From Mesocentrotus franciscanus (Eukaryota > Echinodermata > Echinoidea > Camarodonta > Strongylocentrotidae): 64,000 bases of DNA. Positions 10,686 through 42,336 of this stretch are shown piece by piece. The translations under genes and the position numbers were made by a program. A model generated the notes under the pieces. The model was given only the letters and a program-made list of their open reading frames with translations. It did not search any database and was not told the DNA's origin. The stretch lies in the NCBI GenBank assembly GCA_037976565.1, contig CP137672.1, forward strand, positions 29,765,218 to 29,829,217, in the 5' to 3' direction. The first letter of the stretch is position 1. Every line of letters starts with the position of its first letter.

Positions 10686-10748
10686 GTATTTGCATTCTAC
10701 ATCTCCGGGACAAATATCTATTGACAGGATGGGAGGCACATTGACAAC
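10686..10748 (+). CDS. Candidate first coding exon of the NLR gene (start ATG at 10729)
   Basis: A pyrimidine-rich acceptor (ctctcattacag) precedes 10686 and a strong donor gtaagc begins at 10749. An ATG at 10729-10731 gives MGGTLT plus two bases of a codon. Those two bases join in phase to an acceptor at 11375-11376 (ttaatag), giving MGGTLTTQSQIY and then the DEATH domain with no stop. The alternative acceptor at 11386 would need a phase-0 partner, which this exon does not supply. The frame is also open upstream of the ATG to 10686, so the true start could lie in an earlier exon. This is an inference from phase matching. Confidence 0.5.
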
Positions 10749-11376: not shown

Positions 11377-11675
11377 TCAATCACAGATTTACCAAGGTCG
11401 ATACGATGACACCATCTACAGAATAGCAGAAGCCATATCAGATGACAGGGATTTAAGGAAGCTTGGTTTGGCGCTAGGGCTCAGTCGTAGTGCGATCTTC
11501 AAGGCTATCACGAAAAACTGGGAAGAAGGCCCTAAAACCGCCGAAGGCAACAAGATGATGCTTCTCAAATGGGCGAAAACCATCAACCGATCCGAACTTC
11601 TACTTCCGGCTCTCAGATCAGCTCTCGATAGAGCTGGGTTAGCAGAGATAGCAGAATCATGTTTCCCAACTGTAG
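11377..11675 (+). CDS. DEATH-domain exon of the NLR gene
   Basis: The exon encodes about 100 residues with the amphipathic pattern of a DEATH domain. Helix 1 is TIYRIAEAIS, followed by LRKLGLALGLSRSAIFKAI, an NKMMLLKWAK helix near two thirds, and LRSALDRAGLAEIAE at the end. The 'LG..LGL', 'LL.W' and 'L..AL...GL..IA' spacings are those of the superfamily. DEATH domains recruit adaptors by homotypic contacts, and in echinoderm NLRs this is the usual N-terminal effector. The exon ends at g11675 before gtacgt, leaving phase 1, which fits every linker exon downstream and the NACHT exon. Two broken copies lie at 16461 and 17771. The 5' boundary could instead be 11387. Confidence 0.85.
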
Positions 11676-13758: not shown

Positions 13759-13824
13759 ATGAAACTCCCCCAACACCGGTGAATCGACATGGTCAAGGAG
13801 ACTATACACGGCTTAATGAAGAAG
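13759..13824 (+). CDS. Linker mini-exon L1a (22 codons, phase 1-1)
   Basis: The acceptor is gcatatag and the donor gtaggat. Joined to the G left by the DEATH exon, it encodes DETPPTPVNRHGQGDYTRLN and then EE, a short polar proline-containing segment. Two sister exons with the same flanks occur at 17354 and 19566. Both boundaries are in phase 1 (a split glycine codon follows), so skipping it keeps the frame. It has no recognised domain and probably adds flexible length between DEATH and NACHT. Confidence 0.65.
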
Positions 13825-13909
13825 GTAGGATTTTATTGCAATGTATATACCTCACTTCAGAAATCTAGCCATCTGATTGGTCGAAATTGGAGTCGTGATT
13901 TAAACCATG

Positions 13910-14072
13910 CCCGCCTACCAGTCAATAGTCTTTTAAAAGTGCCCTCATACCCGCCTACCAGTCAATAGTCTTTTAAAAAATGCCCTCATACCCGCCTACC
14001 GGTCAATAGTCTTTAAAAAAATGCCCTCATACCCGCCTACCGGTCGATAGTCTTTTAAACAATGCCCTCATG
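13910..14072 (+). repeat. Tandem repeat, about 41 bp x 4
   Basis: Four near-identical copies of a unit beginning cccgcctaccagtcaatagt and ending gccctcata lie head to tail. They differ by a few bases and by the length of the A run. Confidence 0.9.
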
Positions 14073-14094
14073 CTGCGATAAAGTAAGAATTCTT

Positions 14095-15486
14095 ACACTC
14101 TAAAAAATCAAGTGCTAATTTTAGCACCTCAAGATTTGGAGGCAGCACCTGTAAGGGCACGCATAGGGACTGCCTAAATTGTGCTAAAGTAGCACTTGTA
14201 CACGTGCTATAATTCAACACCAGTCCAAGTGCTACTTTAAACACTTTAAGTGTAAGCCTTTTACACTTCTGGTGCTATTAGACGCATGCAGCTCGCAAAA
14301 ACCACACTTCTAGTGCATTAAATAACCCCTTTTAGAGCCCCAAAACGGCACTGCTAGTGCTAACACTTTTGCACCCAATATAGTGCTAAAGAACACACAC
14401 AAACAGGATGCACAAAATCACACCTGTAGTGCTGAAAACTCACCCTTCTGTTATTATTATTATTTTCAGCCTACTTTAAGCACCTAAAACATACCCTCAA
14501 GACGCCACATGTCACACTCATGGTAACGAATGGGTAGTCACATATATGAGTTAAAAAGACTCACTTCTTTATTGACAAAAACCATTGTAAAATCACAACA
14601 TCCCTTCAAAAGTAATACATGTATTTGTATCAAAGGGTAAAAACACAAAACTGTTTCATGCATACTGATAAAACATTAAAGCTCAACTCAGCTGCTCATC
14701 ACTGGAAAGTCATCATAATGGATAAACAGATCAAACATGATAAGCTAATACAACAACACTGCAGGATTCCAGCAGTCTGTGTCTGGTTACAGAGCATTCT
14801 CACATTAGGTTTACCTTACTGCAATCTAACTCACATGCATTTTATACATTGTGACATGTGTTATATATCAGAAGGTTCAATAAAGCCTGAAAAGTAACAA
14901 ATAATTTTCCAGGCCCGGTAAATAATAATGCTGTTTACATTATGTCTGCACTCCTAATTTAGTAAAGCCCTCATACAACCAAGACAAACAAAATACATAT
15001 TATTATGTTAGTCTGAAGTTTTTACTGTTACATTGAGATTGCACATTTCTATGTCAATTACATGCAGTGGTAGTCTTGCTGCCATGTAGAATGTTGGAAA
15101 TGGTATCATCATGCACATTCAAGCAGAATTATTAGGCAATGAAAAGAATACCTTCTCAGATCCCCGCTCTTTATAGCCGAGTGGCGACCTATCTCATTTG
15201 AATTTTAAATTACTTTGAATTTCTTTTGTGTGAAACACTGCCTTGCACCTGGAACGCTGGTGCGCCTGTGCATGGAGCGCCAGCACTACCGGTGTTTATT
15301 CAAGTGCTAAAACAGGCAGGGTCACACTTAGGGTGCAATTTCTCGAATAGCACGTGTTTCCAGCACTCATTTTTCTGCTCGTCATCGCTTCCCAAACGCT
15401 GCATGCACGCCAAGGGCTACACTTGGCACGTGTGGTGCAAATTTGTACCCAGCACCCGTGATTTAGCACTTCATTTTTTAGAGTGT
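14095..15486. mobile_element. TIR element with ACACTCTAAAAAAT ends
   Basis: The left end acactctaaaaaatcaagtg is mirrored at the right by cacttcattttttagagtgt. The 1.4-kb interior has many 'agtgcta/tagcac' words and no transposase. It lies in the intron after L1a and carries a short TTATTATTA run near 14450. The superfamily and target duplication were not settled. Confidence 0.7.
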
Positions 15487-15648
15487 AGTATATTTTTGTG
15501 TCAATTCGGTATATAAAAGATATAATGACTGCTTTAATATTCGAGGCATATTTGTTTTTATAGGCTCTCGCGGACGTTACATCCCCTTGAGTCTATAAAA
15601 ACAACCATCCCTCTCATAGCAGTCATTATACTATATTATAGCTCTTAA

Positions 15649-16402
15649 AGGGCAAGTCCACTCCAAAAATAACTTACTTTCAATAGAAGCAGAAAAATCA
15701 GACAAACCAATTAAAACAAGTTTGAGCAAAATCGGATAACTAATAAGAAAGTTATGAATTTGTAATGACATGAAAAACTTTGAAAATCACTACACAAATT
15801 GGTAACTTACTCATGAGTCTGTGACGTCATGTCATCACTATCCACTAATTATTTTCTTTATATTGATCACATAAATTTTCCCCCTAAGAATCTTATTTCT
15901 TCACACCAGCATCCAAGTTAGCTTGATAGTAATATGTTTTTGTGTGGATGCACTAATAAAGAGTAATTTTTCCAGTAAAATCATGAAAAATGTGAATTTT
16001 GATAAATTAATTATATAAAAATCAATAATTATGAATATACAATATTCAGAAAATAGTATCAATTCTTCAAAGTTCATAAAAGATTTTGTGAAATGTCATG
16101 CAAGCAATATGATACAAATCATATAACCTGGGCAAAGGCATGGGGAAATCAAGTTTTGGGGGATAAAAAGGGAAATTAATGGGATTAAACTATATAAAGC
16201 AATTGATAAATAGTGAGGACATGACGTCACAAACTGATAACCAAATTGGCAATTTGTGTAGTGATTTCCATTGTTCCATAGTTTTACATACTTAAATACA
16301 AAAATTCATAACTTTCCGATTTTGCTCAAACCTTTTTTGATTGGTTTGTCTGATTTTTCTGCTTCTATTGAAAGTAAGTTATTTTTGGTGTGGACTTGTA
16401 CT
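15649..16402. mobile_element. TTAA-inserted MITE (piggyBac-like target choice)
   Basis: The left end agggcaagtccactcc and the right end ggtgtggacttgtact form terminal inverted repeats that continue inward for well over 100 bases. Examples are aataacttactttcaatagaagcag at left and its complement at right. TTAA flanks both sides (15645-15648 and 16403-16406). The paralogous empty site reads ggctcttaagccaaaatag near 17439-17457. It is nonautonomous. Confidence 0.85.
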
Positions 16403-16460
16403 TTAAGCCAAAATAGGCACCGGAAGCGGGAGGGCTGAAGGGGTAGATGCCTGATCTGAT

Positions 16461-16544
16461 CCGATCTGATAATGCCAGTACTTACATCATCTCTGTTTCG
16501 ATCCGGGTTAACAGAGATAGTAGAAACATTTATCCCAAGTGCAG
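16461..16544 (+). pseudogene. Truncated DEATH-exon copy (unit B)
   Basis: Only the last quarter of the DEATH exon remains. It includes a segment reading LTEIVETFIPSAG before a retained donor gtgcgt at 16545. It matches 17920-18003 almost base for base and resembles 11595-11675. The upstream part is missing, being replaced by the ctgatctgatccgatctgat repeat region. It cannot encode a DEATH fold. Confidence 0.8.
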
Positions 16545-16699
16545 GTGCGTTTGTGGTTATATAATCCTTCATTCGTTTTGTTACTGAGAAGTAGTTCTGC
16601 ATATACCCATCTACTTCCCTCAACACTTTTCAAGTAGAAATATTATCGCTCTATATCAACAAAAAAAACGTAATTAGACGGCATGAAATGGGAATACAT

Positions 16700-17059
16700 T
16701 TCGCTTTACAGAGGAAGACGAAGAGGAAGACGAATAAGAGCACATGAAGAAGAAGAAGAGAAAGAAGAAGAAAAAAAAAAAGAAAAAAAGAAGAAGAAGA
16801 AGGAGGAGAGTAGGACAACTATTCTAAGGGGTAGTTGTCTGGGGGTAGTTGTCCGGGGGTAGTTGTCCTGGAGGGTGGTTGTCCTAGGGGGTAGTTGTCT
16901 GGGGGTAGTTGTCCGGGGGTAGTTGTCCTAGGGGGTAGTCGTCCTAGAGGGTGGGAGCCCTAGGGGGTAGTTGTCCTAGGGGGTAGTTGTCCTAGAGGGT
17001 GGTTATCCTAGGGGAGGTTATCCGGGGGATCGATGTCCAGGGGTAGGTGTCCGGATACG
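16700..17059 (+). repeat. Polypurine tract then G-rich minisatellite (unit B)
   Basis: Positions 16710-16812 are a GAA-type purine tract. Positions 16826-17059 consist of variable copies of a unit of about 16-19 bp around ggtagttgtcctaggg. The same minisatellite occurs at 19028-19330 and 29985-30152, each time ending in a ...gtaggtgtccggatacg segment. Confidence 0.85.
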
Positions 17060-17353
17060 GGTCGAGCTAATAGCTTGACGGGGTGACACTTTAAGGACAG
17101 GTTCTAATACTATCAGTGATACTAACAGTGCTTTTTGTTGTCGACATGACTGGAAAACATAGTTAAAAAAAACATGATACTAAAAAGTGGAAGTAATTCA
17201 ACATCGCGTACCGTGTCTAAATTAAACAGAATAACCAGGTATGCTCAATCTTGACCCCACTCAATTGGTGTCTGTTCGGCTACTTTCGAATGATAAAACG
17301 CTAATTGATAATAATCACTGCATTAACATTCATTTGTTTTTAATTGTGCATAG

Positions 17354-17419
17354 ATGAACATCCCTCAACACCGGTGAATCGACGTAACCAAAGAGACTCT
17401 ACACTGATTAGTGAACAAG
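17354..17419 (+). CDS. Linker mini-exon L1b (22 codons, phase 1-1)
   Basis: The acceptor is gtgcatag and the donor gtaggat. It encodes DEHPSTPVNRRNQRDSTLIS then EQ, homologous to L1a but more basic. The frame is open and both splice sites are intact, although the DEATH exon of the same duplicated unit is truncated. Transcriptional use is inferred from this retention and not shown. Confidence 0.6.
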
Positions 17420-17770
17420 GTAGGATTTTATTGCAATGTATGGCTCTTAAGCCAAAATAGACACCGGAAGCGGGAGGGCTGAGGGGGTAGATGCCTCTCT
17501 AAGTCAGGGGGCGGGGGGTCAATTTTTGTCGATCAAAGGCCCCTTGCAAGAGAAAAAAGAACACTGCTTGTTAATAGGCCTATGTAGATTGCAACGCTGT
17601 ATATATAATAAGCTTTCTAGTGCTCTGAAATGCGAATTTCTGCATTTCAAAATAACAATTTCCACGTACGGTCGCTAAACTCCTTCTTAAATACCGAATG
17701 CACTATGTTTCTTAATGGTAAAACCCGGTCTAGAATAGGCACCGGAAGTATAAGGGCAGATACTTCCATC

Positions 17771-18003
17771 TATCAATGATTTAAGGAGACTTGGTTTGGA
17801 ACTATGGTTCAGACACAGTGCGATTTAAAGGGTAATCACGAAAAACCGGGAACACGGTTCTAGATCCACCGATGGAAACAAGATGGTGCTTCTTAAATGG
17901 GCGAACACGCTCAAACTGTCCGATCTGAAAAAGCCAGGACTTACATCATCTCTGTTTCGATCCGGGTTAACAGAGATAGTAGAAACATTTATCCCAAGTG
18001 CAG
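17771..18003 (+). pseudogene. DEATH-exon copy with in-frame stop (unit C)
   Basis: Almost the whole DEATH exon is recognisable (LRRLGLEL at the start, GNKMVLLKWA in the middle, LTEIVETFIPSAG at the end) with a donor gtgcgt at 18004. In the frame that matches the intact exon, a TAA stands at 17826-17828 in the middle of the domain, so this copy cannot supply a full DEATH domain. Its 3' end is nearly identical to the fragment at 16461, showing a recent relationship between units B and C. Confidence 0.85.
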
Positions 18004-18175
18004 GTGCGTTTATGGTTATATAATCATTCATTTGTGTTGTTACTGAGAAGTAGTTCTGCATAATTATACCCATCTACTTCCCTCAACACTTTTCAAGTGG
18101 AAATATTATCGCTCTATATTTTAGAAAAAAATAAAACGTAATTAGACGGCATGAAATGGGAATACATTTCGCTCT

Positions 18176-18378
18176 ACAGAGGAAGACGAAGAGGAAGACG
18201 AATAAGAACACACGAAGAAGACGAAGAGAAAGAAGAAAAAGAAGAAAAAAGAAGAAGAAAAAGAAGAAAAAAGAAGAAGAAAAAGGAGGAAGAGGAGGAG
18301 GAGGAGGAGGAGGAGGAAGAAGAAGATTAGGAGTAGGAGGAGAGGAAGAAGAACAGGAACAAAAAGAAAAAAGAGAAA
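18176..18378 (+). repeat. Polypurine (GAA/GGA)n tract, unit C
   Basis: About 200 bases are almost purely A/G on the + strand (pyrimidines on the other). Apparent lysine/arginine/glutamate or serine/phenylalanine open frames here are compositional. It is followed to about 18990 by DNA paralogous to 11957-12124 and 12788-12990. Confidence 0.85.
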
Positions 18379-19027
18379 AAACTTTCCGCCGTATTTCCAT
18401 TGAGTTCATAACTCTGGTAAAGGCCTAAAGAAGGCATTTCTGGTCATATGTAGATAGCCTGTCACGCCATCGAACTTGCTCCTATAAGATATTCAGACCA
18501 TCTAAGTTATTGGCAAAAACAGTTATCAGTCTCCCTATAGCCGTCGGATTTAACCAACCGAGACCCCGACCCCTAATTCAAGCCGATTCCAGTCCATCAA
18601 AAGTCCATAAACCAAACATTGTCCAAAAGGAAGTACGATGGCAGCACATTCCAAATCCCGAAAAATTGGAAACAGAAATGTCAGTAGGAATTTTTTAATT
18701 ACATGTCAGTCGCACTTAAAAGTCAGGTGAATATTTGTCATAAAAACTCATTGATCAAGCTATATCATCAGGTTAAGATATGACTGTACATCACAATTAT
18801 CTCAAAACGGACAATTTGTTTTGTTTGGAAAGAGGTAATAGATTCTATGAAAAATAACCTAAATGCCATTTCGCTAAACCTTTTTTTTTTTTGGGGCTGA
18901 GGTAGAGTTTTTCATGGGCATGATACCTCATTCCTATAGGAATGTAAAATATTCCTTGGTTTGAATGGTATACAGTCATAACTGTTCCTTAAAAAAAAAA
19001 AAAAAAATCGTGCATGGGCTTCAAGGG

Positions 19028-19345
19028 GACATCTACCCCTGGACAACTACTCCTACACCCTACGACAACCATCCTCTAGGACAACTACCCCCGGACAACT
19101 ATCCAAGGGGTTAGTTGTCTGGGGGGTAGTTGTCCTGGAGGGTGGTTGTCCTAGGGGGTAGTTGTCTGGGGATAGTTGTCCGGGGGTAGTTGTCCTAGGG
19201 GGTAGTCGTCCTAGAGGGTGGGAGCCCTAGGGGGTAGTTGTCCTAGGGGGTAGTTGTCCTAGATGGTGGTTATCCTAGGGGAGGTTATCCGGGGGATCGA
19301 TGTCCATGCAGGGGGTAGGTGTCCGGATACGGGTCGAGCTAATAG
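19028..19345 (+). repeat. G-rich minisatellite with an inverted start (unit C)
   Basis: Copies of the ggtagttgtcctaggg unit run from about 19106 to 19290. The first about 75 bases (19028-19105, ggacaactacccc type) carry the unit in the opposite orientation, so the array is head to head around 19105. The end (tgtccggatacgggtcgagc) matches unit B at about 17048-17067. Confidence 0.85.
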
Positions 19346-19565
19346 CTTGACGGGGTGACATTTAAAGGACAGGTTCCAATACTATCAGTGATACAGTGCT
19401 TTTTGTTGTCGACATGACTGGAAAACATAGTAAAAAAACTAGGATACTAAATAGTGAAAGTTATTCAACATCGTGTACCGTGTCTAAATTACTACTTTCG
19501 AATGCTAAAACGCTAATTGATTATTATCACTGCATTAACATTCATTTGTTTTTAATTGTGCATAG

Positions 19566-19631
19566 ATGAACGTCCCCCAACACCGGTGATCCGACGTAAC
19601 CAAAGAGACTCTACACTCATTAGAGAACAAG
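19566..19631 (+). CDS. Linker mini-exon L1c (22 codons, phase 1-1)
   Basis: The acceptor is gtgcatag and the donor gtaggat. It encodes DERPPTPVIRRNQRDSTLIR then EQ. It is closest to L1b and keeps an open frame and both splice signals. The next linker exon begins only 277 bases downstream. Confidence 0.6.
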
Positions 19632-19908
19632 GTAGGATTTTATTGCTATTTATGGCCCTTCTGCTAACATAGGCGCCAGAAGCGGGAGGACTGAGGGTGC
19701 AGGAACCCCCATAAGTCAAGTCAAGGGGACACATTTCATTGCTCTAGTGATATTGATTAATTTTCGGAAAATCTGATGTTGTATGCCCCTGTCATCCCAG
19801 AAATAGCTATTCGACCCTATTTTCAGTAACTGCATATTTAAATGCACATCATCACATGAAAATCTTGCATATCCATCTTATAACGCTTACATTTATATTC
19901 ATATCTAG

Positions 19909-19979
19909 GAGGAAATCCCGCGCCACAGAGCGATTATTCGTGCCGCCAAAGTGCCTATGTACCGGAAATAAGACCTGGG
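19909..19979 (+). CDS. Linker mini-exon L2a, donor disrupted by a MITE
   Basis: The acceptor is atatctag. With the incoming G it encodes GGNPAPQSDYSCRQSAYVPE then IRPG, homologous to L2b-d (GGNPxxQS...). The other copies end in ...cag or ..aag before gtaat. Here the donor position is occupied by the left end of a MITE (from about 19974). The ancestral donor-like sequence ccaggtcatatctag is found only on the far side, at about 20265-20279. A GT inside the MITE end (ggg|gtgttt, near 19981) could act as a substitute. The status as a functional exon is therefore uncertain. Confidence 0.45.
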
Positions 19980-20268
19980 GGTGTTTCACAAAGACTTAAG
20001 TTGGACTTTAACTATGGCAGGCCATTCATGTTACTGGTTGCTCTCACCATTAGAGGAAAAAACCTTAGAAATTATAATCTTTAGATAATCCTTTTTCCTT
20101 CAATAATGAACTATCAATAAAATTGAATTCTGTAGATTTGTGACAACGATTTGTTTGTCCATTGAGAGACCAATGCCAGGAATGGTGAGAGCAACCATCG
20201 GCATGCACAGCCTGTCATAGTTCAAGTCCAACTTAAGTTGATATTAGTCTTTGTGAAACACACCCCAG
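19974..20268. mobile_element. MITE inserted at a linker-exon donor site
   Basis: The left end cctgggggtgtttcacaaag is mirrored by ctttgtgaaacacaccccag. The inverted repeats continue inward through acttaagttggactt and gagagcaacca. The sequences on its two sides align to the continuous exon-intron junction of L2b (24841-24905), which places the insertion at the splice donor. It has no coding capacity. Confidence 0.85.
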
Positions 20269-20269
20269 G

Positions 20270-21680
20270 TCATATCTAGTTTTCAACCATTACATTTTCT
20301 GTCCTTTATTAATCCGATTGATATATACATACATTCCATACACCCACATACACACACATCCCCCCACACACACACACCCAAACCCACACACACACGTATA
20401 TATATGCAGCAATAGAAATACCCACCTGAAAAGTGGGGTCGGGCGATCTCAAGTCGGTCTCATCTCACACTATGTTTTAATCATTATTATTACTATCATT
20501 AGAATGACAAATTATTATTAGAATTTTCAGAGATCAATAAGCACTACTAGACCTTTGAATTAACATTGTTGCTCTTAATGACTCAACAATCACAGGCAGG
20601 ATTTGTGTTAATTAGAGTAGCAACCAATGACGTTCTGAATAGTCTTATTCAAAGGTAGATTAAGAAAAGAGCTTTGAAGCAGAAATGAATTTTTTGGTAG
20701 AATTCACAAGCCAATGCTCCTCCCTCCATCATTTTTTCTCTCCCCTCTTACTCGTACGCTCATTTGCTGTATAATTGTGTATAATACACGGTGGAAACAC
20801 ATTACCTTTCCCCTACCGTGTGGCGGGTGGTAAGGGGGAGGGGGGTCGTCGCGTGTGGCGGACGGAATGTTTATGCTCCCAGCTTTGATCATGTCGATTT
20901 TGGGCACCAATCACCACCAATTTAAGGAAATTGTATTGTCTAAAAAATAAGATATATCGATTTCATGGTAAAAATATGACTTTATGGAAAATTGCATACT
21001 TTCACTTTTATTTTCAAGAACAATCGACTAAATTATGCCTTCGTGTCCTTTGAAATATTCATTCCATTTCTCTTCCTGAAATTTTACATAAGATTCATGA
21101 AACAAAACTGTCTGTACACCTGCCAATTGTAGGTGTACATGTAATTTTCCCTACATCTTATCCAAGTTTTAAGGAGCCATACATAGAATTATGAAAGAGG
21201 ATGAAGGAAGAGAATTTAGAACAAAGACAAATTCGACCGTCAGGCAAGACAAATTAGAATGAAATCTGATTAAAATTAACGGACAAGAGTTGTAATTGAT
21301 GAAGCCCAGGCTAACATTTGCACATTCGCGGATTCTCAGGACAAAATTGCAGTGCACAATGTTGAATTCGAATGAAAAGTTTCAAGTGGACGGGAAATCT
21401 TTTATTGAATATTTTGATAAAAATAGTTTTCATAAGATGTGCAGCTAAATTACTTTCCAGTAAATAATTTAATTCCGAAAAATCTCAATTATACATATTA
21501 AATCACTCCGAAATTGAATAAAATTAGATTAATTTCGGAGTGCGTTTATATGCAAAATTCTAATGGCAGACTTTAAAAAGTTTGTAAATGTAGATACCAA
21601 GGACATTTAATATCTCAGACGATTCAATATACAAAATCAGCTGTTAATCTAAAGGTGTGCCAAATTTTATGTTGTTTTAT
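20270..21680. other. Intron DNA, CA repeat, otherwise nothing recognised
   Basis: Positions 20270-20335 continue the ancestral L2a intron (parallel to 24847-24905). An interrupted (CA)n/(TA)n run lies at 20338-20405. The remainder is AT-rich with no gene or element that could be identified. Confidence 0.55.
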
Positions 21681-21681
21681 G

Positions 21682-22860
21682 ATAATAATAATAAACCATT
21701 CTTATATAGCGCATCTCACAACAATAATTTTAAGCCCCTATGCGCTCAGAAAAAAAGAAAAGAAGGGGTAACAGCAGACATGAGGGAAGAGAAAGAATAA
21801 CTGCTTTGTCATAACATTGTACTATTTTAACAAACGAAAAATGTGTTTTTTAAGCCACACTGTACTACTTGTAGCTACTTGCTCCATCTATTAAACAATG
21901 CCTAAGCGGTGCCTGTTGGTCCCCCATTATCCTCTTTTTGTTATGTTAATATTGACAGCTGAGTTGATAAGATAACCACCTGTCAGTGACCACGCTAACC
22001 TCTCTAATCCCTCCTGGCCAAAGTAGTACAGTGGGCCTTTAAGAGACTCTTAAAATTGTTTACTGTATCAACCTGCTTTAGATGATTAGGTAATTTTTCC
22101 ATAACTCTGCAGCTGCCAGTTGAAAGTATCTCGCACCATAGTAATTTGTTGATATTGAGGGAGGAACTGACAAGGATTTTGACTGAGAGCGAAGGTTTCT
22201 TGCTGGGCAATATTTTGTTATCAATTGTTGTAAGTAATCAGGGCTTAATCCTTGCATGCACAAGAACACCAATGTCAAAATCTTAAAATCAATTCGTTGT
22301 TTTACTGGAAGCAAATGAATTTTTTCTAAAACTGGGCTTATGTGATCATGAAGTCGAGTGCGAGTAACCAACCTTGCCGCAGAGTTTTGGATTCTTTGCA
22401 ACTTCTGAATTTCATTATCAGGAAGACCATATAAGATACCATTACAGGAGTCAAGGCGAGAAACTACATGAGCATGAATAAGTCTTTCTGTGTGCACCTC
22501 TTTGCATAAGAAAGGGACGAATTGTCCCAATCTTATGCAAAGCATATGATGCTGCTTTGCAGATATAATTCACATGAGCTGACAATGTCAAATGTTTATC
22601 TAGTCTCACACCAAGGTTTCGAGCTGAGTTAACAGAGTGTGTTATAGCGTTACCAAATGAAATGGTATCAATCCGATTGCATTGTCTACATTTACTTGTA
22701 AAGTGAAGGACCTCAGTTTTATCCTCATTGAGTTTAAAACCATTATGAGCCGACCAAATCTTGATATCTACCATACAAGCCTGGAGTTGCAAAACTGCTT
22801 CATTCTGACGACCTTTCTAGAATAGGACATATACTTGGGTATCATTGGATAAGTTGCATT
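21682..22860 (-). mobile_element. 5'-truncated CR1/L2-like LINE, reverse transcriptase C-terminal part
   Basis: On the - strand a decayed RT palm motif (NDTQVYV) lies near 22855-22835. It is followed by 'GFKLNEDKTEVLHF' (from about 22735) and 'LGVRLDKHLTLSAHV' (from about 22610). A second frame from 22545 holds 'SRLDSCNGILYGLP' and 'RIQNSAARLVTRT', typical of the end of RT in these LINEs. A frameshift joins the two near 22500. The 3' end has gcgctatataag and then TTATTATTA at 21682-21715, a usual tail for the family. The 5' part is missing. Confidence 0.8.
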
Positions 22861-23651
22861 TAGTTGGGGAATTTGTAAATTATGAAAATGTTCCTCTTTC
22901 ATAAATGGGCACTTAAACTACAAGGAAATATTTTAAACCGAAAAGTTGAATCTACATATCGAATCACCCCAAGTGCCTATAATATATGATTTTGGACTGT
23001 ATTTATATAAAGAGTGTTCATAGATACTGCGGCCATTTTGAAAGATGGCTTGTACGACCCCAATGTTAAAATCTAAGATGATATAAGACATCAATTTGCT
23101 TTGAGGCGAACGTGGGTGTTTAATAACAAAATGCGTTTATAATAAAACTTTCCAATTTTTTCATAGAATGGGCAACTGGAAACATTCAATTCTAAACTTT
23201 TCATATCGAATTACCCTCAAACCCATATTACTCACGACTTTGGGCTAAACTTATGTGAAGGATGCCCTGAGGACGGGAATTTTTATAAATGGCCTACACG
23301 GCCCTCAGGGACAAAATCTGAAAGATCTCCACTTTGTTTATAAGACCTACATATTATGTATATATATATATCTTTATGTGTATCAAATTGGTGCTGCTAT
23401 CATAAATTGCACAATTAGGGTAGCCTATATATAACGTTCCACTACTCCACTACTCCACTACTCCACTTCAACAAGCTATGCTAGTTGTTCCTCCTTTCTC
23501 GTGCTATTTCTATCATATTTGTCATCTCATTGTATATTTTTTTGTAATATACGTTTTCATTGTATTATGTTTTGCACGAGAAATAAAAATTATTTGAATC
23601 ATTGAATCATTCAGCATTCAGCCTATATTGGAAACCGACCTTTCTTTTGTT
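22861..23651. other. Intron DNA without recognised features
   Basis: The DNA is AT-rich. A small triple 'ccactactcca' repeat at 23439-23467 and a TATA run near 23357 are the only structures seen. Confidence 0.5.
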
Positions 23652-24457
23652 TATATAAACCTCTCAAAAAAGTTTTGAAACTCAAGTATGATCGACTATA
23701 TTCTTCGGTACTGTAATTATGAGGCTCCATGAAATGAGTGACTAACTAGGAGTAACTTTTAGTGACATAAATAAATCCCTAAAAAAAAAGTAAAGTTCGA
23801 AAACTCAAATAAGATCGATTATATCTATCTTGTTTTGGCATAATGTTTAGTATGAGAAAGTGAGTTTATTCTTGTTTAAATCATATCCAATATGTTATGA
23901 TTTTTCAGTCATGAAAAGTGCAGTAGATCAAAATAGGGGTCTTAGTCAAAAATGAAAAGTTGCAAAATGCACTGCTCTTGTTCGACTGTGTATTCAAATT
24001 GCCCTATTGCCCTGGCTTTTCAACAGTTCTTAAGCTAGGCATGATGCTTCAGAAAGTTGACGACCAAACAGTAAAGAATCTTGCCTGATAGGTCACCGTA
24101 GTGCATGAATTTCGATTTCAGATTCTTTAGAATTGGGCATGCATGGATGACCAGATGGGAACAACAGCCACACTGTCATTTACAAAAATCGCATTTTCTT
24201 ATGTCAAAGAAAGAAGAGTGCTCTGCATAACAATAAAACCAGTGCTATACGTTCATTTTCAAACTTTTCACTTTTGACTCTGACCTTTATTCTGATGTAC
24301 TGCTCACTCCATGGCTAAATCATAACAAGTATGGTATCATTTTAAAGGGGAATAAACAAACCTTCTGATGATAATAATCAAAGCGATTATGATGACATGA
24401 TAAGAGAGCTATAGTCGATCCATCCTGAGCTTCCAAACTTTTTGAGGGGTTTATATA
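23652..24457. mobile_element. 0.8-kb TIR element (TATATAAACCTCTC ends)
   Basis: Left tatataaacctctcaaaaaa and right tttttgaggggtttatata are inverted repeats, and the match continues inward (gatcgactata versus tatagtcgatc). Further in there are partial inverted matches around 23895-23960 and 24250-24310. It has no transposase, so it is nonautonomous. The superfamily is not assigned. Confidence 0.7.
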
Positions 24458-24777
24458 CTCTTTTAAGGACAGGATGTAATATCCGTATGTCTATTCTATT
24501 TACTGTATTTTGCACTTTGGCTAAAAATGAAGTTGGATGGTGTTTCCAATCTGATTTTTAAATACAGTGAGGCATATATAAGTTAACTACCTCTTTACCT
24601 CAAACTTCGAAAGATTCAATGGAATTGCTTTAATTTCATTACCTATTCACTATCCTCCCCCTCTCGAAAAAATACACATACATGTAAAAGCCCACTTCCC
24701 CTAGTTGAAGCAAAACAATTATAAAAAATTATTGCTATGACACATACGAAATAAATTGTTTTTATATTTATATCTAG

Positions 24778-24846
24778 GAGGAAATCCCGAACTACAGAGC
24801 AGTTATTCGCGCAGCCTAAGTGCCTCTGTATATGAAACCAATCCAG
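24778..24846 (+). CDS. Linker mini-exon L2b (23 codons, phase 1-1)
   Basis: The acceptor is atatctag and the donor gtaatatt. With the split glycine it encodes GGNPELQSSYSRSLSASVYE then TNP. It is serine-rich and uncharged in the middle. Upstream and downstream intron flanks match those of L2a, L2c and L2d, so these exons arose by tandem duplication of an exon plus flank. It has no known domain and is probably part of the DEATH-NACHT linker. Confidence 0.7.
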
Positions 24847-24904
24847 GTAATATTTTATTTTCAACTACTAAATTGTCCGTCCTTTTGTAATCCAATTGAT
24901 ATAT

Positions 24905-25115
24905 ACACACATATATATATATATATATATAAGTGCGAGAATTCTCAACTCTGACATGACAACGGGTGTTCCAGAATATGTAGGCGTGAATAAACACACA
25001 CGACAGCCCAACACACAAGCAAGAACCTGAAGAAGGCCTCACAAGCCGAAAGCTCGTAATAAAATTGTAAAGTACAGCTACGTCTCACGTTCCTAGACCA
25101 TTTTTTCTTCACGCC

Positions 25116-25152
<37 letters not shown>

Positions 25153-25170
25153 GCACACACACACACAAAC
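24905..25170. repeat. (TA)n and (CA)n runs around a short repeated segment
   Basis: (TA)n stands at 24911-24931 and 25117-25138, with (CA)n at 25139-25168. Between them, 24931-25115 contains a moderately GC-rich segment (ctgaagaaggcctcacaagccgaaagctcg) of a kind seen near Penelope-like and other repeats. The assignment of that segment is not certain. Confidence 0.6.
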
Positions 25171-25406
25171 GCACACACAAGGAAACAAACAAATAACCTC
25201 GACTCAACTTTCTCATCTTGACGAATGGATCAAAATAATAAAGTGAATCAAATTCAGTAGACGTAGATCGTGTCTTGCATAAACTGCGGAATAACTGTAA
25301 ATCCTCCGTTCACTCACTCCTGCCTTCCGCCACTTGAAATAAATCAATTATAGATAATGATTGATATGGCACCCATGAAATATAATATCTTTATATCTCT
25401 ATTTAG

Positions 25407-25472
25407 GTGGAAACCCCAAAGCACATATCCATCCACGCAGCCGGAGTGCTTCTGCACTGGAAAATGAACAAG
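25407..25472 (+). CDS. Linker mini-exon L2c (22 codons, phase 1-1)
   Basis: The acceptor is ctatttag and the donor gtaatatc. It encodes GGNPKAHIHPRSRSASALEN then EQ. It is histidine and arginine richer than L2b and closest to L2d. The intron before it is only 560 bases. Confidence 0.7.
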
Positions 25473-25639
25473 GTAATATCTTATTTGCAACTTTCCATGT
25501 ATTTCATCACAATTTGATAATAGGTCACTATAATTAGGTCCAAGAGTAACAACTATATCTCTTTAGATCGTGTCTTGCATAAAATGCGAAATAACTCTAT
25601 TTATCTAAGTATCTTCTCCCGGTTCGGAGGTTGATTGCA

Positions 25640-26330
25640 ACATCTCTCCATTTTACTCTTCTGCCATTATCTTCTGCCATTCTGGTGCCTCTTGCAGTTT
25701 TAGTCCACTCCAGTTCTTGACATTCTCTTCCCAGTTGATTCTGTGTCTCCCTCTCGGTCTAGTTCCTTCAATTCTTCCCTCCAACACATCCTTTAAGAGG
25801 CTTTGGTGCCTTTTAACATGACCAAAGTATTTGACTTTTTTCTCCTTAACTAATCCTACCAGTGCAATTTGGTTACGCCCTGCCATGTGCAATATCTCTT
25901 TGTTGGTTTTCATTCGTTTTCAGGATATTTTCATCATTCTTCTGTAAATCCACATTTCAAAAGATGTTATTCTATTTTCCATGGCATTGCTTATTGTCCA
26001 TGTTTCAGCTCCATACAATAGGACAGACCATACATAACACTTTACTAGTCTTAACCTAAGCGCAAATTTCACCTTTCTATCTGTGAATAAGTATTTCATT
26101 GCCAGAAATGTATTCTGAGCTATTTCTATTCTTCTTTTTATTTCTGCTTGGCATCTGGCATCATCTGTGATTTTTTGTCCTAAATAGATGTAATTACTGA
26201 CCTGCTCAATGATGTGTCCATCGAGTTTCAAACAGATTCTAGGCTTATTCTCTGTTCTACTAAAAACCATAGACTTAGTTTTCTTGACATTCATGCATAG
26301 ACCAAACTCTTCACTTTTGACTTTACGAAA
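25640..26330 (-). mobile_element. Non-LTR retrotransposon fragment (RT C-terminal end)
   Basis: On the - strand from 26294 the frame reads KTKSMVFSR, YIYLGQKITDDARCQAEIKR and LLYGAETWTISNAMENRI, then YFGHVKRH and GRHRINWEENVKNWS further on. This is the typical C-terminal tail of endonuclease/RT proteins of common invertebrate LINEs. An in-frame TGA at about 25921-25923 breaks the frame, and both ends are missing. It sits in the L2c-L2d intron, whose sequence on either side resembles the uninterrupted L2b-L2c intron. Confidence 0.8.
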
Positions 26331-26458
26331 TAACTGTAAATCCGCAATTCACCCACTCCACTCTGTGCCTGCATTACGCCCCTTGAAACGAAACAGTTAA
26401 AGATAAATATTGACATGGCACCACCCACGAAATAAAACATTTGTATATTTTTATCTAG

Positions 26459-26524
26459 GTGGAAACCCCAAAACACAAAGCCATCCACACAGCCAAAGTG
26501 CCTCTGCACTGAAAAATGAACTGG
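26459..26524 (+). CDS. Linker mini-exon L2d (22 codons, phase 1-1)
   Basis: The acceptor is ttatctag and the donor gtaatatt. It encodes GGNPKTQSHPHSQSASALKN then EL. The final phase-1 G joins gc of the NACHT exon, giving GGHE, so the NACHT exon itself starts with the same GG motif as the linker exons. Confidence 0.7.
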
Positions 26525-31854: not shown

Positions 31855-33410
31855 GCGGCCATGAAGCGATGCCAGATGAGATAAGGACACTAAGAGAAAA
31901 GCTGAAGAATAGATATATTCACAAGTATGGTAACATCAAAACGTCACCTGTGGACCCTGATTCAAGCAAGGGGCTCCGAAAAATCTTTGTCAGCCTCGTC
32001 TTGATTTTGAAATCGAGCACGTCAATATTTGCTAAAGATCAGTCGATTGAAACCGATAAACTCTATGAGTTGCTCACGAAAAATACTATAGAGGGATTCT
32101 TAACACGTTTCGCATTCCTCGGCAAAGTCGGAGTAGGGAAATCGACGTTATTCTCTAAGATAGCCCTCGACTGGGCATTAGGTGATTGTCTTCAAGATGT
32201 TGATCTGCTTTTTCTCGAATCATTTCAAGACATGGAAAATAACCAGTCTTTTGGGAATATCGTAATGAATCACTTTCCCGATATGAAGGTAATCCGAGGG
32301 GACCGCATAGATCAATATATCGAAAATAACCAAAGAAAAGTAGCTATTTTGATAACTGACCTTAACGAGAAAAAAATGGATTTGACGGTTCCAAATAGCA
32401 AAAATGCTGTCGTTTCGATAGTCAGAGGAGATAGATATACAGAGACCCCAGTACTTATAACGACACTTCCTTATGTAGTTGATCTTATCAAAGGTGACGA
32501 CAACATTCGTCAACTATATACATTGATAGAGGTCCAGGGCTTTTCCAGAAAGGGCTCACATAATTATATCGATCAGTTTTTCCTACATAACAAAGATTCT
32601 GCTGTAAGCCTACACCAGTACATAAGATCAAACGCCCAAATTTCGGAGTATTTGACTCCTTATCCAATCTTCTGCAGTATGCTGTGTTACGTTTGGGAGA
32701 AGGTATCAACACAGGAAACCCTCAAAAAGCTTGAAACATTCTCGCAAGTGTTCAAGGAAATTTGCTTTTCTCTTGGAGAGCAATACTTCTCAAAACGTAG
32801 GAGCAGAACCCAAGAATATGAAGCCCACATGAGGAAGGTTTCCGATACCATTCGAGCCGTTGGTAAAATAGCCTTCGACGGCTTGATGGAAAATCAACAC
32901 AACTTCACAGAAGAGGTAATGGAACCATGTAAGGACGATGCATTAACCGCATGTGACATGGGTATTCTTGGTAGGGAAAGGAGACTGGTGTCTAGGGAAA
33001 AAAGACAAAGTCATGGAAAGCCATTCATCGAAGAGTTTTATTTTCCTCATGACCTCCTGCAGGAGTATTCAGCAAGCTCTTACCTTGAATCGCTGTTTCG
33101 CAACGATCCGTCAGAGTTCAACAGAATTCTGACGGATAGGGTACTCAGAGAGTACAAGAAATTCAAATATGTCTTGTTCTTCACTGCCGCACAGGGAGGT
33201 GACTTAGCAGCATCGGTGATGAAAGCCCTATGTCAGCGAGTTAGTGACATTAATTTCATCATGGAGGTTGCGTTTGAATGCCAAGATATAGACGCCCTTG
33301 ATCCTTGTAAAAACTTGTTAATTCACAAAAGATCTCTTGTACCAGTTCATTCAACCCAGCACAGCTTTTTAGCGACTGTGTTTGCATTAGAGACGTACGG
33401 GAAAGAAGTG
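31855..33410 (+). CDS. NACHT ATPase exon of the NLR gene
   Basis: One exon of about 519 codons, acceptor ttcaatttaag, phase-1 start (G|GC GGC CAT). Counting from the methionine at 31869, a pre-NACHT helical part occupies 1-80. Walker A GKVGVGKST is at 85-93. The Walker B region VAILITDLNE is at 158-167, where the usual DG.DE acidic pattern is degraded. The sensor-1 region LITTLP is at 196-201, with leucine where the family has arginine. PIFCSMLCYVW (266-276) and FYFPHDLLQEYSA (390-402) are the winged-helix and superhelical signatures. The NACHT domain binds ATP and drives receptor oligomerisation. The frame runs to a TAG at 33423, but the expected donor is GTGGTT at 33408 or GTTAGT at 33411, both phase 0, matching the repeat exons. 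Intact Walker A suggests ATP binding; hydrolysis may be impaired. Confidence 0.95.
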
Positions 33411-36238: not shown

Positions 36239-36427
36239 ATAGAGGAGGTGAAGCATATGCCCTCTGAGTTCACACTGGATGCCATGAGGACGTATTCTGA
36301 TAACTTTGTCAATTACTCAAGGGCTATCTTCGACATGCCAAATTTCCGATCACTTCAGCTGGCAAATAATAACCTGGAAAATGAGTGTTTCTACTCAACA
36401 ATGGCTGCCAAGGCGGAGAATTCACAG
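36239..36427 (+). CDS. LRR-like repeat exon R1 (63 codons, phase 0)
   Basis: The acceptor is gttctcatcag and the donor is gttttt after TCACAG, a weak site. The protein starts IEEVKHMPSEF and carries the shared core FDMPNFRSLQLANNNLEN. It is the longest and most divergent of the eight phase-0 repeat exons, with about seven extra residues before the core. It should follow directly on the NACHT exon. The core MP.L..L.L..V.L is one leucine-rich turn; the rest of each unit is helical in character. Confidence 0.85.
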
Positions 36428-37070
36428 GTTTTTATAAATTTAATTAAAGAAAAATCAATTGTATTGTCGTTGAGATATAATATGTACATCTTTGTCTAGG
36501 TTCAATAACAATGTAAACGCAGTAAACTAAGCACGCAATAAATCCAAACTCTATTCAATGTAGACCAATAAAAGTTATAATAATTGAACGTATAAAATCT
36601 ATAAATACCGTGTTAAAGTCCGGAGGTAAAACGATGTTATAACAAAATTTTGAAAACTATAGCTCCTTGAAGTTCACCTTTGAGTTCAACTTTAATTGAT
36701 GTAAAACTTGATCGTACATGTTATAAGCCGGAAGGCCTGCAGTAGTTTGGGTGAATAAAATATTTTAGAAAAATCCAATTTGATTGTAAAAGTACATGAA
36801 TAAACGATATATATGCATTTATTTAACGGGGTGAAAAAAAGATGACTAAAATTCGCCTCTACCATTTTCCTTCAAGTGTAAGTCGATCACTTATCTCCCT
36901 CAGTCAATTTGACCTATGATTTCCTTTCTTGCTTTGCGTCATCCTTCACAAAACGAGTATATTTTGTAATGCATTTTCCCATTTTCCGTTACCTTCTTTT
37001 CATGTCATGATCCCGATCGGATAATTGTGTTTCACTTCCCTTTATTGGTGACTACTTGTTACACCATCAG

Positions 37071-37238
37071 ATCACGACGCTAAGGCATGAGGGAGGATGT
37101 TTGGATCAAGCATCATCGTATCACTACGCGACAGCAATCGTTTCTATGCCACACCTCCAAAATCTGGAGCTGTGTGATGTAGAACTGTCCAGCAATGACT
37201 TCTACCCTAAGATGGCCGAAGGAGCATCAAAATCAAGA
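37071..37238 (+). CDS. LRR-like repeat exon R2 (56 codons, phase 0)
   Basis: The acceptor is acaccatcag and the donor gtaaac. It begins ITTLRHEGGCLDQASSYHYA and has the core VSMPHLQNLELCDVELS. It has an inserted residue before DFYPKMAEGASKSR compared with R3. The intron before it is 643 bases. Confidence 0.9.
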
Positions 37239-37576
37239 GTAAACCCAATCGAAATGATTTCATTCAACCCTGATTTCCTAGATAGTTTATCATGTTTATG
37301 TTGTAATTTACGATATTTATTTATTGTAAATTCGATTCATTATTCCCAGTAAAATATTACTCTTGATTATTGATCTTCAATATCATTTGATATGAACATC
37401 GACTTGAATGATTATCACATTTAAAGGTACTACATGTATTTAATTAATGAAAATGATCAAGTATAAAATTACCTGAATGGACACAGAGATGCTATTTATT
37501 AACGTTATCTATAGGAATGGGCATAAAAATTGGGATTTCTTTCAATTTAAAATTTGCGTGTATCCTTAATCTTCAG

Positions 37577-37741
37577 ATTATGACCCTGAAACATGAGAGA
37601 GGAAGTTTGAGTCGTGCTGCATCAGCCAAGTACGCCAAAGCTATCGTGTCTATGCCGAACCTTCAAACTCTTCAACTGAGTGATGTCAAGCTGAACGATG
37701 AGTTCTACCCGCAGATGGCTGATGGAGCGTCAAATTCAAGA
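37577..37741 (+). CDS. LRR-like repeat exon R3 (55 codons, phase 0)
   Basis: The acceptor is aatcttcag and the donor gtatac. It begins IMTLKHERGSLSRAASAKYA, core VSMPNLQTLQLSDVKL, end ADGASNSR. It is close to R2 and R4, and the three form the most similar subgroup, suggesting recent exon duplication or conversion. Confidence 0.9.
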
Positions 37742-38107
37742 GTATACTAAAATTACCTTTTCCACTCTTTCATTTTGTACACACGCTATAGTGTCATTGT
37801 CCCTTCTCTCGCTTACATGACTTAAGAATTTGACTTAAGTAAAAAAAAATTTGACCTATATACTTCCTTATGTAGTTAGGTTTCATCAATAATAAAAATT
37901 TACTGGAAATTAAATGATATAAAAAATAAAAACAGGTACTGTGATGTGGCTATGAAAAATCGTCCATATCACTTTTTTGGTTGTGTTTATTTTCAATATT
38001 TTTCTGTCATACGTTCGCCTATACACCATCAAATACATGCATGACGACAAATGCTGTTTTTTCCTTTGCCAACTTCTAATTTTGCATGTCTCCTGTCACT
38101 TCCCCAG

Positions 38108-38275
38108 ATCGTGACGCTGAAGCATGAAGGAGGGAAATTGGGTAAAGATGCTTCCAGGCAGTACGCCAAAGCTATCTTATCCATGCCAAACCTTCAAAAC
38201 CTGGAGATGTGTAATGTGAAGCTGAGCGATGACTTCTATTTGCCAACAATGGCTACCAAAGCATCAAATACGAAA
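38108..38275 (+). CDS. LRR-like repeat exon R4 (56 codons, phase 0)
   Basis: The acceptor is cacttccccag and the donor gtatgg. It begins IVTLKHEGGKLGKDASRQYA, core LSMPNLQNLEMCNVKLS, end TKASNTK, with one extra residue in the YLPTMA part. Confidence 0.9.
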
Positions 38276-38379
38276 GTATGGTGAAAAGAAAGTATATGGA
38301 ACACAGCGTTTCACAAAACTAAGCTAAGGCAATTTTAGATTCCTTGTGGATCACATATTGAAATGTGAGACCATGACAA

Positions 38380-39430
38380 TGATATATATATATATATACT
38401 ACGTAATCTGAACAGGATTTATTTAGGCACTACAATAGACTACTGAAATTGCCCTTATGATGATTTTTTTTGAAAGAAATTTTGCAATCGTGTTTTGCTC
38501 TTTTTTCATATATATTGAGGAATATGATTATAGTAGTTCCATCTAACCAAATTTTATATTAGCTATTTGCATAGGCCTTTGCAATAGATTATATCCTACA
38601 TATTTGCATACATACGTAATTCATGCAAATTAGTACAGTATTGGGAAATGGCATGATCCCATTGAAATCCGTTTCTTAAGCAATATCTCAAATGGCGGCT
38701 GGACTAGAATTCTAGAACTGTAAGTATGTGCGCGAGCCTGCATGTGCAATGACAATGGCAATGGCAAACTTAGGCATTGGTAAATACATATGATATCCAA
38801 CATGAAAGAATTGAACGATGTTGATCAATATAATTTACAAGATTACTTAATTTGTATTATTTGGAATGATATGAAAATATACCTAACTCACAACAAATAT
38901 CTTGTGTAAGTTATAAATGCATGAACAGCTAGATACTTTATTTTTGTCAGTTAATATCTAAGCAAACAGATACAGTGACACCATGATGTTTGATCAAGAG
39001 TATTAATCACAGGCACCAGTAAATTCTGCGCGTGTGCGTGTGTGTGTGTGTGTGTGAGTGTATGAAGGGAGCACGGAGTATAGGTAGCTACGAGCATTGG
39101 TGATAGGGATCAAGCGTGAACCCCCTGCAAATCATGCTTTTTTAAGCATCTATCACGCCATATTTCCGTATAAACAGAACAAAAATATTTGTAAACATTT
39201 ATGATCCAAATCTATTTTCTCTGGATATGGATCAAACTGCGCTACAGATAATATATTTATTATCTTTCCTATACCTTTCTTATTACTTATCCATGGGCTG
39301 CCATTTGACTTATTGTGTTATCTTTAGTCATCGTATCTTTTCCTATTCCACAAGCCTTGCACACACGTTTGTCTTTAAGTATACATTGGGCCTTTCACTT
39401 AATCTTTTATTTTGCCGGTCGTACAACCAG
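38380..39430. other. Intron R4-R5: microsatellites, nothing else
   Basis: (TA)n at 38382-38398, 'caatggcaatgg' near 38752-38765, and (GT)n at 39029-39056. No element or extra exon was identified. Confidence 0.6.
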
Positions 39431-39595
39431 ATTAAGAAGCTAAAACACGTAGGTGGAACTTTGGGCCAAGATGCATCCTCTCATTACGCGAAATGTTTGA
39501 GCTCCATGCCAAATCTTCAATCACTGGAGCTGGATAATGTGAAACTACACGATGACTTCTACAAAAAAGCATCTACAGAAGCAGCGAAATCAAAT
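39431..39595 (+). CDS. LRR-like repeat exon R5 (55 codons, phase 0)
   Basis: The acceptor is gtacaaccag and the donor gtaaac. It begins IKKLKHVGGTLGQDASSHYA, core SSMPNLQSLELDNVKLH, end TEAAKSN. The acceptor has few pyrimidines immediately upstream (gccggtcgtacaaccag), but the frame continues open 5' for 68 codons, which is probably chance. Confidence 0.9.
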
Positions 39596-39659
39596 GTAAA
39601 CCAAATATGTTATAATACTTTCTGTCTGAGATATAGCATTTTGTAATCAATAGACTGTA

Positions 39660-40401
39660 TAGTTGGATAAACCATACGTTTAACCGGAAGGATATTAACA
39701 CTTTCATACTATGTCTACTTAAGGCCAAATTTATTTGTTAAGTATCTTCTGCTCTCATGTGGTTGATGTGAAAGTTTTCTTTCAGCAATGGAAATTTTTG
39801 TGCATTCTGTTTTAAACCCCTATCTTTGCATTAATTCAATAAATGATGTGACATTATAAAAAAGCATGGACATTTCGTTTTACATTGTTAGGGTAAGAAA
39901 AATTACGTTTTAAAGCACAAAACCCTATAAATACTAGTATCTTTGCATGCAAACGTTGTTCCAAATACAACAAAACTTGGCTCATCGATGCTATTTGGTG
40001 ACATTCATGTAATTAGTGACTGGTGGGCAAAATCTGGCTAATGCATTTTGTTGTATATTGATAATAAATTGTTATAAATATTCGTGGTTTTCTTGATAAA
40101 TTACTGACTTCGAATAATTAATGAATTGGTTGGTTAGTTCATAGCTGGTTGCCGTGAACTTTTAAGTGCTAAATTATTCGCTTGCTGTTTACATATTTAA
40201 ACCGTTATATAAATACCGGTCTTTGAAAAAAAACTATTAAAAGCTTTTACTTACATGTCAGTTATTCTTACTCGACTATACGCAGTTCACGTGTGATTGC
40301 TGTCAAACATACATCACCACTTTAAGAAGTTTTTACATTTTACGAATGAGATAACTATTCACCTTATCATATAATTTGTAATACTCCTTCAATTTCATTA
40401 G
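39660..40401. other. Intron R5-R6 without recognised features
   Basis: AT-rich sequence. No repeat exon remnant or transposable element was recognised. Confidence 0.5.
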
Positions 40402-42102: not shown

Positions 42103-42249
42103 GTAACAGACCACTAAGCCCGTTGCCAACGAGGCGCTATTCCAATACGCAAAAAAGGTGCCAATTGCTTGTTCAATTTAATAAAATTCTTTCCAAAGTA
42201 GGCCTAAGTACGGAAAATAGGTCGATCCTGATAATGACGATGGCTGAAA

Positions 42250-42300: not shown

Positions 42301-42336
<36 letters not shown>

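Follow-up and report, generated by a model that had tools for sequence, protein, structure and literature searches.

Between the exons for the DEATH and NACHT domains of an NLR gene of the sea urchin Mesocentrotus franciscanus lie seven mini-exons, and the locus raises the question of what such an array is for: a stock from which splicing draws alternative subsets, a set of spacers built into the receptor, or the remains of intronic duplication. The gene lies in a 64,000-nucleotide (nt) stretch of contig CP137672.1 (GenBank assembly GCA_037976565.1, 773 Mb in 21 contigs; positions 29,765,218 to 29,829,217 of the forward strand), which was analysed as a whole and is called the window here; coordinates are counted from its first letter, and features of the window gene lie on its + strand. 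On balance we consider it probable, from comparison of the sequences, that the length of the tether between effector and NACHT domain evolves through the number of exon copies in the genome, that the exons are spliced in mostly constitutively, and that effector assembly is tuned in this way.

An earlier note, made from the letters of the window alone, placed seven mini-exons between the DEATH exon (11377..11675, phase 2 to phase 1) and the NACHT exon (31855..33410, phase 1 to phase 0, assigned from Pfam NACHT PF05729 and the tree described below), and all were located there. Three belong to a type called L1, each of 66 nt, namely L1a (13759..13824, DETPPTPVNRHGQGDYTRLNEE), L1b (17354..17419, DEHPSTPVNRRNQRDSTLISEQ) and L1c (19566..19631, DERPPTPVIRRNQRDSTLIREQ). 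Four are of a type called L2, namely L2a (19909..19980, 72 nt), L2b (24778..24846, 69 nt, GGNPELQSSYSRSLSASVYETNP), L2c (25407..25472, 66 nt, GGNPKAHIHPRSRSASALENEQ) and L2d (26459..26524, 66 nt, GGNPKTQSHPHSQSASALKNEL), so that the lengths run from 66 to 72 nt where 66 to 71 had been given. In the frame that the DEATH and NACHT exons impose, all seven are open; their lengths are divisible by three, and they begin and end in phase 1 (1-1), which the earlier note had read for the six with clear donors; the phase 1 it gave for the end of the DEATH exon and the start of the NACHT exon is likewise found. Donors are ordinary for this gene in six of the seven. In L2a the original donor has been replaced, with the phase kept, by the edge of a transposon-like insertion, which resembles a miniature inverted-repeat transposable element (MITE) with terminal inverted repeats (19977..20266, ends approximate, placed by eye) and supplies a substitute GT in phase (GGG/GTGTTT, the slash marking the junction). 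Its usability is uncertain, but L2a cannot be called unusable, because its donor scores no worse than that of L2d (-0.6 against -1.0 in a simple scheme). Each exon encodes a module of 22-24 residues, 78-91% of which are disorder-promoting by residue class, and introns of 277-5330 nt separate the exons, several of whose splice sites are weak by the simple score. The split glycine codon that the earlier note gave for the start or end of each exon opens the L2 and NACHT exons; the L1 exons start on a split Asp codon (G/AT).

This arrangement invites a reading in which subsets of the exons are included in fixed order, which would give up to 64 isoforms from six exons or 128 from seven. Every subset would be in frame, all exons being 1-1 in a phase-1 intron; to this extent the earlier claim that any subset or order preserves the frame stands, but cis-splicing cannot alter the order. 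Short exons amid far longer introns, several with weak sites, would suit such variable inclusion, and a precedent exists in the LRR exons of NLRP3, which are described as phase-modular and alternatively spliced, skipping of exon 5 being inactivating (PMC6642158); these are phase-modular exons of an NLR like those of the urchin, but they encode LRRs rather than a linker. However, symmetric phase is not evidence for alternative splicing, because any tolerated duplication in a phase-1 intron requires it. Nine LRR exons of the same urchin gene are also symmetric (0-0), and for the NLRP3 linker exon skipping in nature is reported not to have been observed (PMC13226650). Combinatorial splicing is in our judgement a tentative possibility. 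A more elaborate proposal, in which stochastic or regulated inclusion would make a dial of the tether, from 0 to 133 (or 157) residues, and in which, Walker B being degenerate, effector reach rather than ATP hydrolysis would set the signalling threshold, seems to us unlikely.

The array can be followed in a sister gene 0.9 Mb from the window gene. Searched against the whole genome, the DEATH exon found a counterpart 74% identical on the minus strand (C7:28899094-28899381; next-best match 52%), about 22.5 kb upstream of a NACHT exon (C7:28875043-28876602) of 51% identity. The intron between them is in phase 1 at both ends and contains five open exons of 66 nt (S1 to S5), four of them intact and 1-1 and one (S2) lacking a GT donor. 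The window gene thus has seven linker exons, one with an altered donor, and its sister five, one of them dead; the proposal of a frame-neutral linker cassette of repeated exons is borne out, and the cassette is conserved at a different copy number. Four of the five sister copies and six of the seven window copies retain the original splice sites and frame in genes whose NACHT domains share 51% protein identity.

DNA profiles, each covering an exon together with the 20 nt before it and the 12 nt after it, were run against 287 kb in total and cross from one set to another. A profile of L1 alone recovered all five sister exons (expectation values (E) 6e-11 to 7e-5) and two of the four L2 exons, L2c and L2d (7.5e-4 and 4.2e-3). 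One of L2b-d alone recovered all five sister exons (7e-8 to 2e-4) and all three L1 exons (2e-5, 0.02 and 0.03), and that of the sister's four intact exons recovered six of the seven window exons (6e-12 to 0.005). This cross-finding makes L1, L2 and the sister exons one family, and therefore the two homologous sets of the earlier note stand as subfamilies of three and four members but not as separate sets. Compared in register with S1, S3 and S5, five of the seven window exons have an identity of 0.45-0.76 in bins within the exon and of 0.61-0.75 over the first 12 bases on the donor side; random intron pairs have 0.27 (standard deviation 0.055), and identity declines to this background once the comparison passes about 20 nt on the upstream side or 12 nt on the downstream side. 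Gapped comparison of the two whole introns found otherwise only DEATH pieces, a shared MITE and one further match. Because alignment between the genes is confined to the exon, some 20 nt before it and 12 nt after it, the linker exons are very probably real exons.

Other searches had a shorter reach. Whole-genome DNA searches attained near copies only and none crossed to the other gene: S3 found the five sister exons and nothing else, and must be of limited sensitivity since the window copies were not reached, while L2d found itself and L2c, and L1b the three L1 exons. Searches with mini-exon peptides missed the sister exons entirely. The L2 start pattern was set aside as a genome-wide probe, as it occurs at 34 places with at most one mismatch compared with 12 for the reversed control, and of five exact occurrences four are the L2 exons and one, on C5, another sequence. 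A protein database search with model residues 60-275 gave 2707 candidates, none with E<=10, and thus no linker homologue at word-based sensitivity.

The surroundings of the exons indicate how the array grew. The repeats holding L1b and L1c also contain 3' pieces of the DEATH exon, an intronic 3' scrap at 16460..16543 (unit 2 of the DEATH-L1 duplication) and a truncated copy with one in-frame TAA at 17778..18002 (unit 3); the L1 part therefore expanded by tandem duplication of a segment whose left edge lies inside the DEATH exon. The L2 copies are alike across the exon and near flanks. Linker exons have thus multiplied by duplication, L1 within a larger segment that includes the DEATH 3' end, and copies also get damaged, as in the loss of the GT donor of S2 and the insertion at the donor of L2a.

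In the explanation we favour, the seven mini-exons are one family of 22-codon linker modules housed in an ancestral phase-1 DEATH-NACHT intron. Spliced in, mostly constitutively, they would yield a long disordered tether rich in proline, serine and asparagine, predicted at 133 residues with six exons (157 with L2a) and at 88 residues for the sister with its four intact exons. Such a tether would govern the reach and freedom of the DEATH domains from the assembling NACHT-LRR, and its length, coming mainly from genomic exon number, would tune effector assembly in the manner of IgG3 hinge exons. The simplest model appears to be one in which tether length follows from the number of exons in the genome. 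A spacer, or else a segment under diversification, would be expected to keep frame, length and splice sites while its residues change.

Several results weigh against this explanation; they come from tests inside the window, from comparison of the two genes and from the distribution of the array. Within the window, codon usage of the linker exons is not coding-like (34th-79th percentile of a GC-matched intron null), and synonymous and nonsynonymous counts are compatible with neutrality, without an excess in the nonsynonymous fraction. The exon of L1a is 80% and 76% identical to those of L1b and L1c while the flanking intron is 92% identical (nonsynonymous against intron changes, Fisher p 0.002 for each comparison), so that the exon has diverged faster than the introns, which fits diversification better than a spacer that is purely passive; between L1b and L1c no such excess of exon over intron divergence is seen. 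Neutral simulations, with branch lengths that we set from intron identity and L2a excused its donor, left all three L1 copies intact in 0.36 of runs, which makes the L1 simulation uninformative; all four L2 copies came through with frame and splice sites intact in 0.0005-0.04 of runs, a result in favour of the explanation. A putative depletion of indels in the exons was dropped: the flanks have 8 events in 930 positions and the exons 1 in 327 (Fisher p 0.28), and the alignment of L1b with L1c was not in register. As evidence of exon status these within-window tests are weak. Between the genes, profiles stripped of the splice flanks perform poorly (E 0.0025-0.09), so that much of the signal must sit in the splice-site flanks, and nonsynonymous divergence (dN) exceeds synonymous divergence (dS) in seven of the eight window-sister exon pairs computed, so that the amino acids are not conserved. 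Among the sister exons dN/dS is 0.35-0.55, from only 5-13 changes per pair.

These results bear on whether the array consists of chance pseudo-exons, intronic duplications fortuitously provided with AG, GT and an open frame. A splice-score scan, with thresholds taken from the mini-exons themselves, found eight open 1-1 candidates of 60-75 nt in the 20-kb intron, seven of which are the linker exons, and 14 on the whole + strand of the window; the scan is insensitive, and in the sister gene it caught S5 and missed S3 and S4. With the length range set to 39-120 nt, the window intron has 0.84 open 1-1 candidates per kb; of seven paralogue introns, the five longer ones have 0.40-1.02 per kb and the other two (0.8-1.2 kb) none. 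Because such candidates are similarly dense in the longer paralogue introns, phase symmetry with an open frame could by itself arise by chance, and a fortuitous origin would also suit the coding tests, which do not support exons, and the place of L1 within a segmental duplication that bears DEATH scraps. Self-similar candidate pairs number seven in the window intron (five distinct exon pairs, two rows reusing L1b with a later donor) and none in the seven paralogue introns. The sister gene speaks strongly against chance, since similarity between the two genes covers exon and splice flanks and falls to background elsewhere, and the L2 simulation argues in the same direction. Homology among the linker exons together with their conservation in the sister gene lies beyond chance, and we regard pseudo-exons as scarcely credible.

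The distribution of the array also has to be weighed. The closest proteins to the window gene are Lytechinus pictus LOC135156326 (P0001, 56%) and NLRs of Strongylocentrotus purpuratus (47-50%). In a tree of 25 NACHT sequences the window gene pairs with P0001 (support 100), a further relative, P0003, joins them (90), then the sister gene, and this clade is split from the other 21 sequences with support 99. In 11 regions from other paralogues (nine of 20 kb and two of 10 kb; p6, p9 and p12 have no DEATH exon inside the fetched stretch) the linker-exon profiles matched nothing below E 0.4; with the sister, these regions sample 12 of the 17 near-full-length paralogues at 47-51%. The NACHT acceptor is in phase 1 in all ten paralogues computed, the sister included, and p11 and p12 look the same by eye. 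Six relatives have DEATH donors in phase 1, seven donors altogether, the exceptions being p5, where the DEATH frame breaks near its end, and p10, whose first DEATH exon lacks a phase-1 donor. The junction of S. purpuratus P0002, EETCLQGK-GEHGEMP, is the same as directly joining the p1 exons would give. The zero-linker form is thus common among relatives, and the array characterizes a single small clade; as relatives outside the clade do without a linker exon, the tether is not essential to the architecture.

P0003 itself, a 1309-residue open reading frame on a 4905-nt contig and therefore probably derived from RNA, has a linker of about 50 residues at the DEATH-NACHT position, in keeping with the favoured explanation. 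Its candidature as a member of the exon family was not supported by the profile, the score being reached by 311 of 2000 shuffles (1754 having a score), and finds weak support in pairwise shuffles, by the best pairwise score (0.004 with L2c, or 0.04 when that is taken as the best of four comparisons); its place in the tree does no more than predict membership. About two module lengths long, this linker would fit a mutually exclusive choice, in which one member would be picked from each of two pools, L1-type and L2-type, and the two subfamilies do lie in two blocks. Yet all the exons are symmetric, so that multiple inclusion is harmless to the frame, and a tree of the exons puts the five sister exons in one group, at low support; a choice of this kind strikes us as very improbable.

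Two further sequences near this junction were considered. A likeness of L1 to an S. purpuratus peptide preceding DEATH (DDTPSTSG) was not significant. At the DEATH-NACHT junction of S. purpuratus P0007, P0022 and P0023 stands an extra in-frame peptide of about 17 residues (ESAQYTVQQTEDCSKNK-like), absent from P0008, P0009, P0013 and P0020 and not found in the fetched paralogue regions. By its sequence it appears to be a separate in-frame linker insertion, at the same junction and again in some relatives only, but as a single peptide of different sequence.

A zero-linker junction outside the clade, as in P0002, could also mean that the mini-exons are a relic, once used and now mostly skipped, the mRNA joining DEATH directly to NACHT. 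The dead S2, the altered L2a and the want of amino-acid constraint between the two genes would agree with this. Against it, original sites and frame persist in four of the five sister copies and six of the seven window copies at 51% NACHT identity, and similarity is confined to the exons and their splice flanks. We think a relic improbable.

The claim of the earlier note that no described NLR has such an array was overstated. Zebrafish NLR-B30.2 proteins are reported to have N-terminal extensions in which a peptide of about 30 residues, of two main types, is repeated several times, with single exons coding for the N-terminal peptides (Howe et al. 2016, PMC4852459), and a figure legend states that the number of N-terminal repeats can vary (PMC11192531, Fig. 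1). These repeats (NLR-C) are the nearest described case: short, on single exons, of two main types, N-terminal to NACHT and variable in number. They differ in length (about 30 residues against 22-24 in the urchin), in preceding Fisna-NACHT and often B30.2, and in occurring in many genes rather than two, and Fisna is reported absent from non-vertebrate genomes (PMC4852459); the comparison is one of published descriptions. In NLRP3 a single short exon, exon 3, encodes the effector-NACHT linker, here of 40 residues between PYD and NACHT, and its deletion is described as shifting the decamer to monomers and dimers while leaving a functional inflammasome (PMC13226650); the case is alike in its short linker exon but has one exon and no array, and PYD rather than DEATH. 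Human IgG3 allotypes, as described in PMC7218058, have 2, 3 or 4 hinge exons, with antibody-dependent cellular cytotoxicity higher for the shortest and the effect dependent on context. IgG3 resembles the urchin genes in building an immune-effector spacer from repeated small exons; it is a secreted antibody without homology to them and varies between alleles, whereas the urchin count differs between two sister genes. A literature search, at title and abstract level and with subscription journals mostly outside it, found no echinoid NLR with repeated DEATH-NACHT linker exons, which is weak evidence. The observation made in the earlier note is confirmed, and its interpretation partly supported.

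The array sits in a single gene spanning about 10.7 kb to beyond 48.5 kb and made up of a first coding exon, DEATH, mini-exons, NACHT and eleven LRR-region exons. The probable first coding exon (10729..10748, MGGTLTT) has an ATG and the donor AAC/GTAAGC and ends in phase 2, matching the DEATH exon; its peptide resembles by eye the N-terminus of P0003, MGNSPTSQQ. Pfam Death matches the DEATH exon below its cut-off (E=0.0025, 18.4 bits against 22.6). An AlphaFold2 model of the exon product has six helices (mean predicted local distance difference test, pLDDT, 82.5), and its top ten Foldseek matches in the PDB are all death domains or death-domain assemblies with probability >=0.98, none with E<=0.001; the model and these matches point to a DEATH fold for the N-terminal effector. 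Among the paralogues, p3 (L023/L024) has, ahead of its NACHT exon, two DEATH exons with phase-1 donors some 10 kb from each other, and p10 (L037) two different DEATH types side by side. A cluster of paired DEATH-like matches within long open frames of up to 786 residues (G000:C10:25007681-25172569) is perhaps another DEATH-domain gene family.

The NACHT identification is clear (PF05729, E=1.2e-11, 45.1 bits, cut-off 26.7). Walker A (GKVGVGKST) is present, but Walker B (about 32335-32370) reads ILITDLNE where most family members have LILLDGLDE, so that the pair is not intact. In sensor 1 the Arg is replaced by Leu (TTRP to TTLP). P0001 has LVDLDL and TTFP, P0003 IADLDE with the Arg kept, and the sister MDDLDE with the Arg kept; the ATPase residues apparently decay stepwise within the clade. 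From the sequence, the Walker B change would bear on ATPase activity and not on descent.

The LRR region was traced by tblastn with P0001 and P0003 to eleven exons (36239..48517), the first nine all in phase 0-0 (36239-36427, 37071-37238, 37577-37741, 38108-38275, 39431-39595, 40402-40566, 41938-42102, 42563-42727 and 45734-45871), followed by 46422-46777 (its end read by eye) and 48424-48517; phases were computed for the first nine. They align to the C-terminal portions of P0001 and P0003, for which precomputed annotation gives LRR domains, and no Pfam LRR match reached the cut-off among the window open reading frames scanned. Introns of the gene hold other elements: one of about 0.76 kb at 15644-16407 with inverted repeats of 93 nt, matched at 89-92% in the fetched regions of p1, p2, p3, p8, p9 and p10; degenerate tandem repeats of about 16 bp (TCCTAGGGGGTAGTTG-like) at 16827-17052, 19102-19281 and 29986-30142; and, on the minus strand at 34704-35201, a reverse-transcriptase zinc-binding fragment (Pfam zf-RVT).

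That effector-NACHT linkers affect NLR assembly was already known, but in the mammalian case the linker exon stands alone. The urchin genome has a pair of sister genes that differ in their counts of the same linker exon, and a dead copy marks a past change. The length of an NLR spacer would become an evolvable trait, one that can be counted in genomes. If cells were also to vary the number of included exons by splicing, an animal that lacks adaptive immunity would have a new way of diversifying its receptors.

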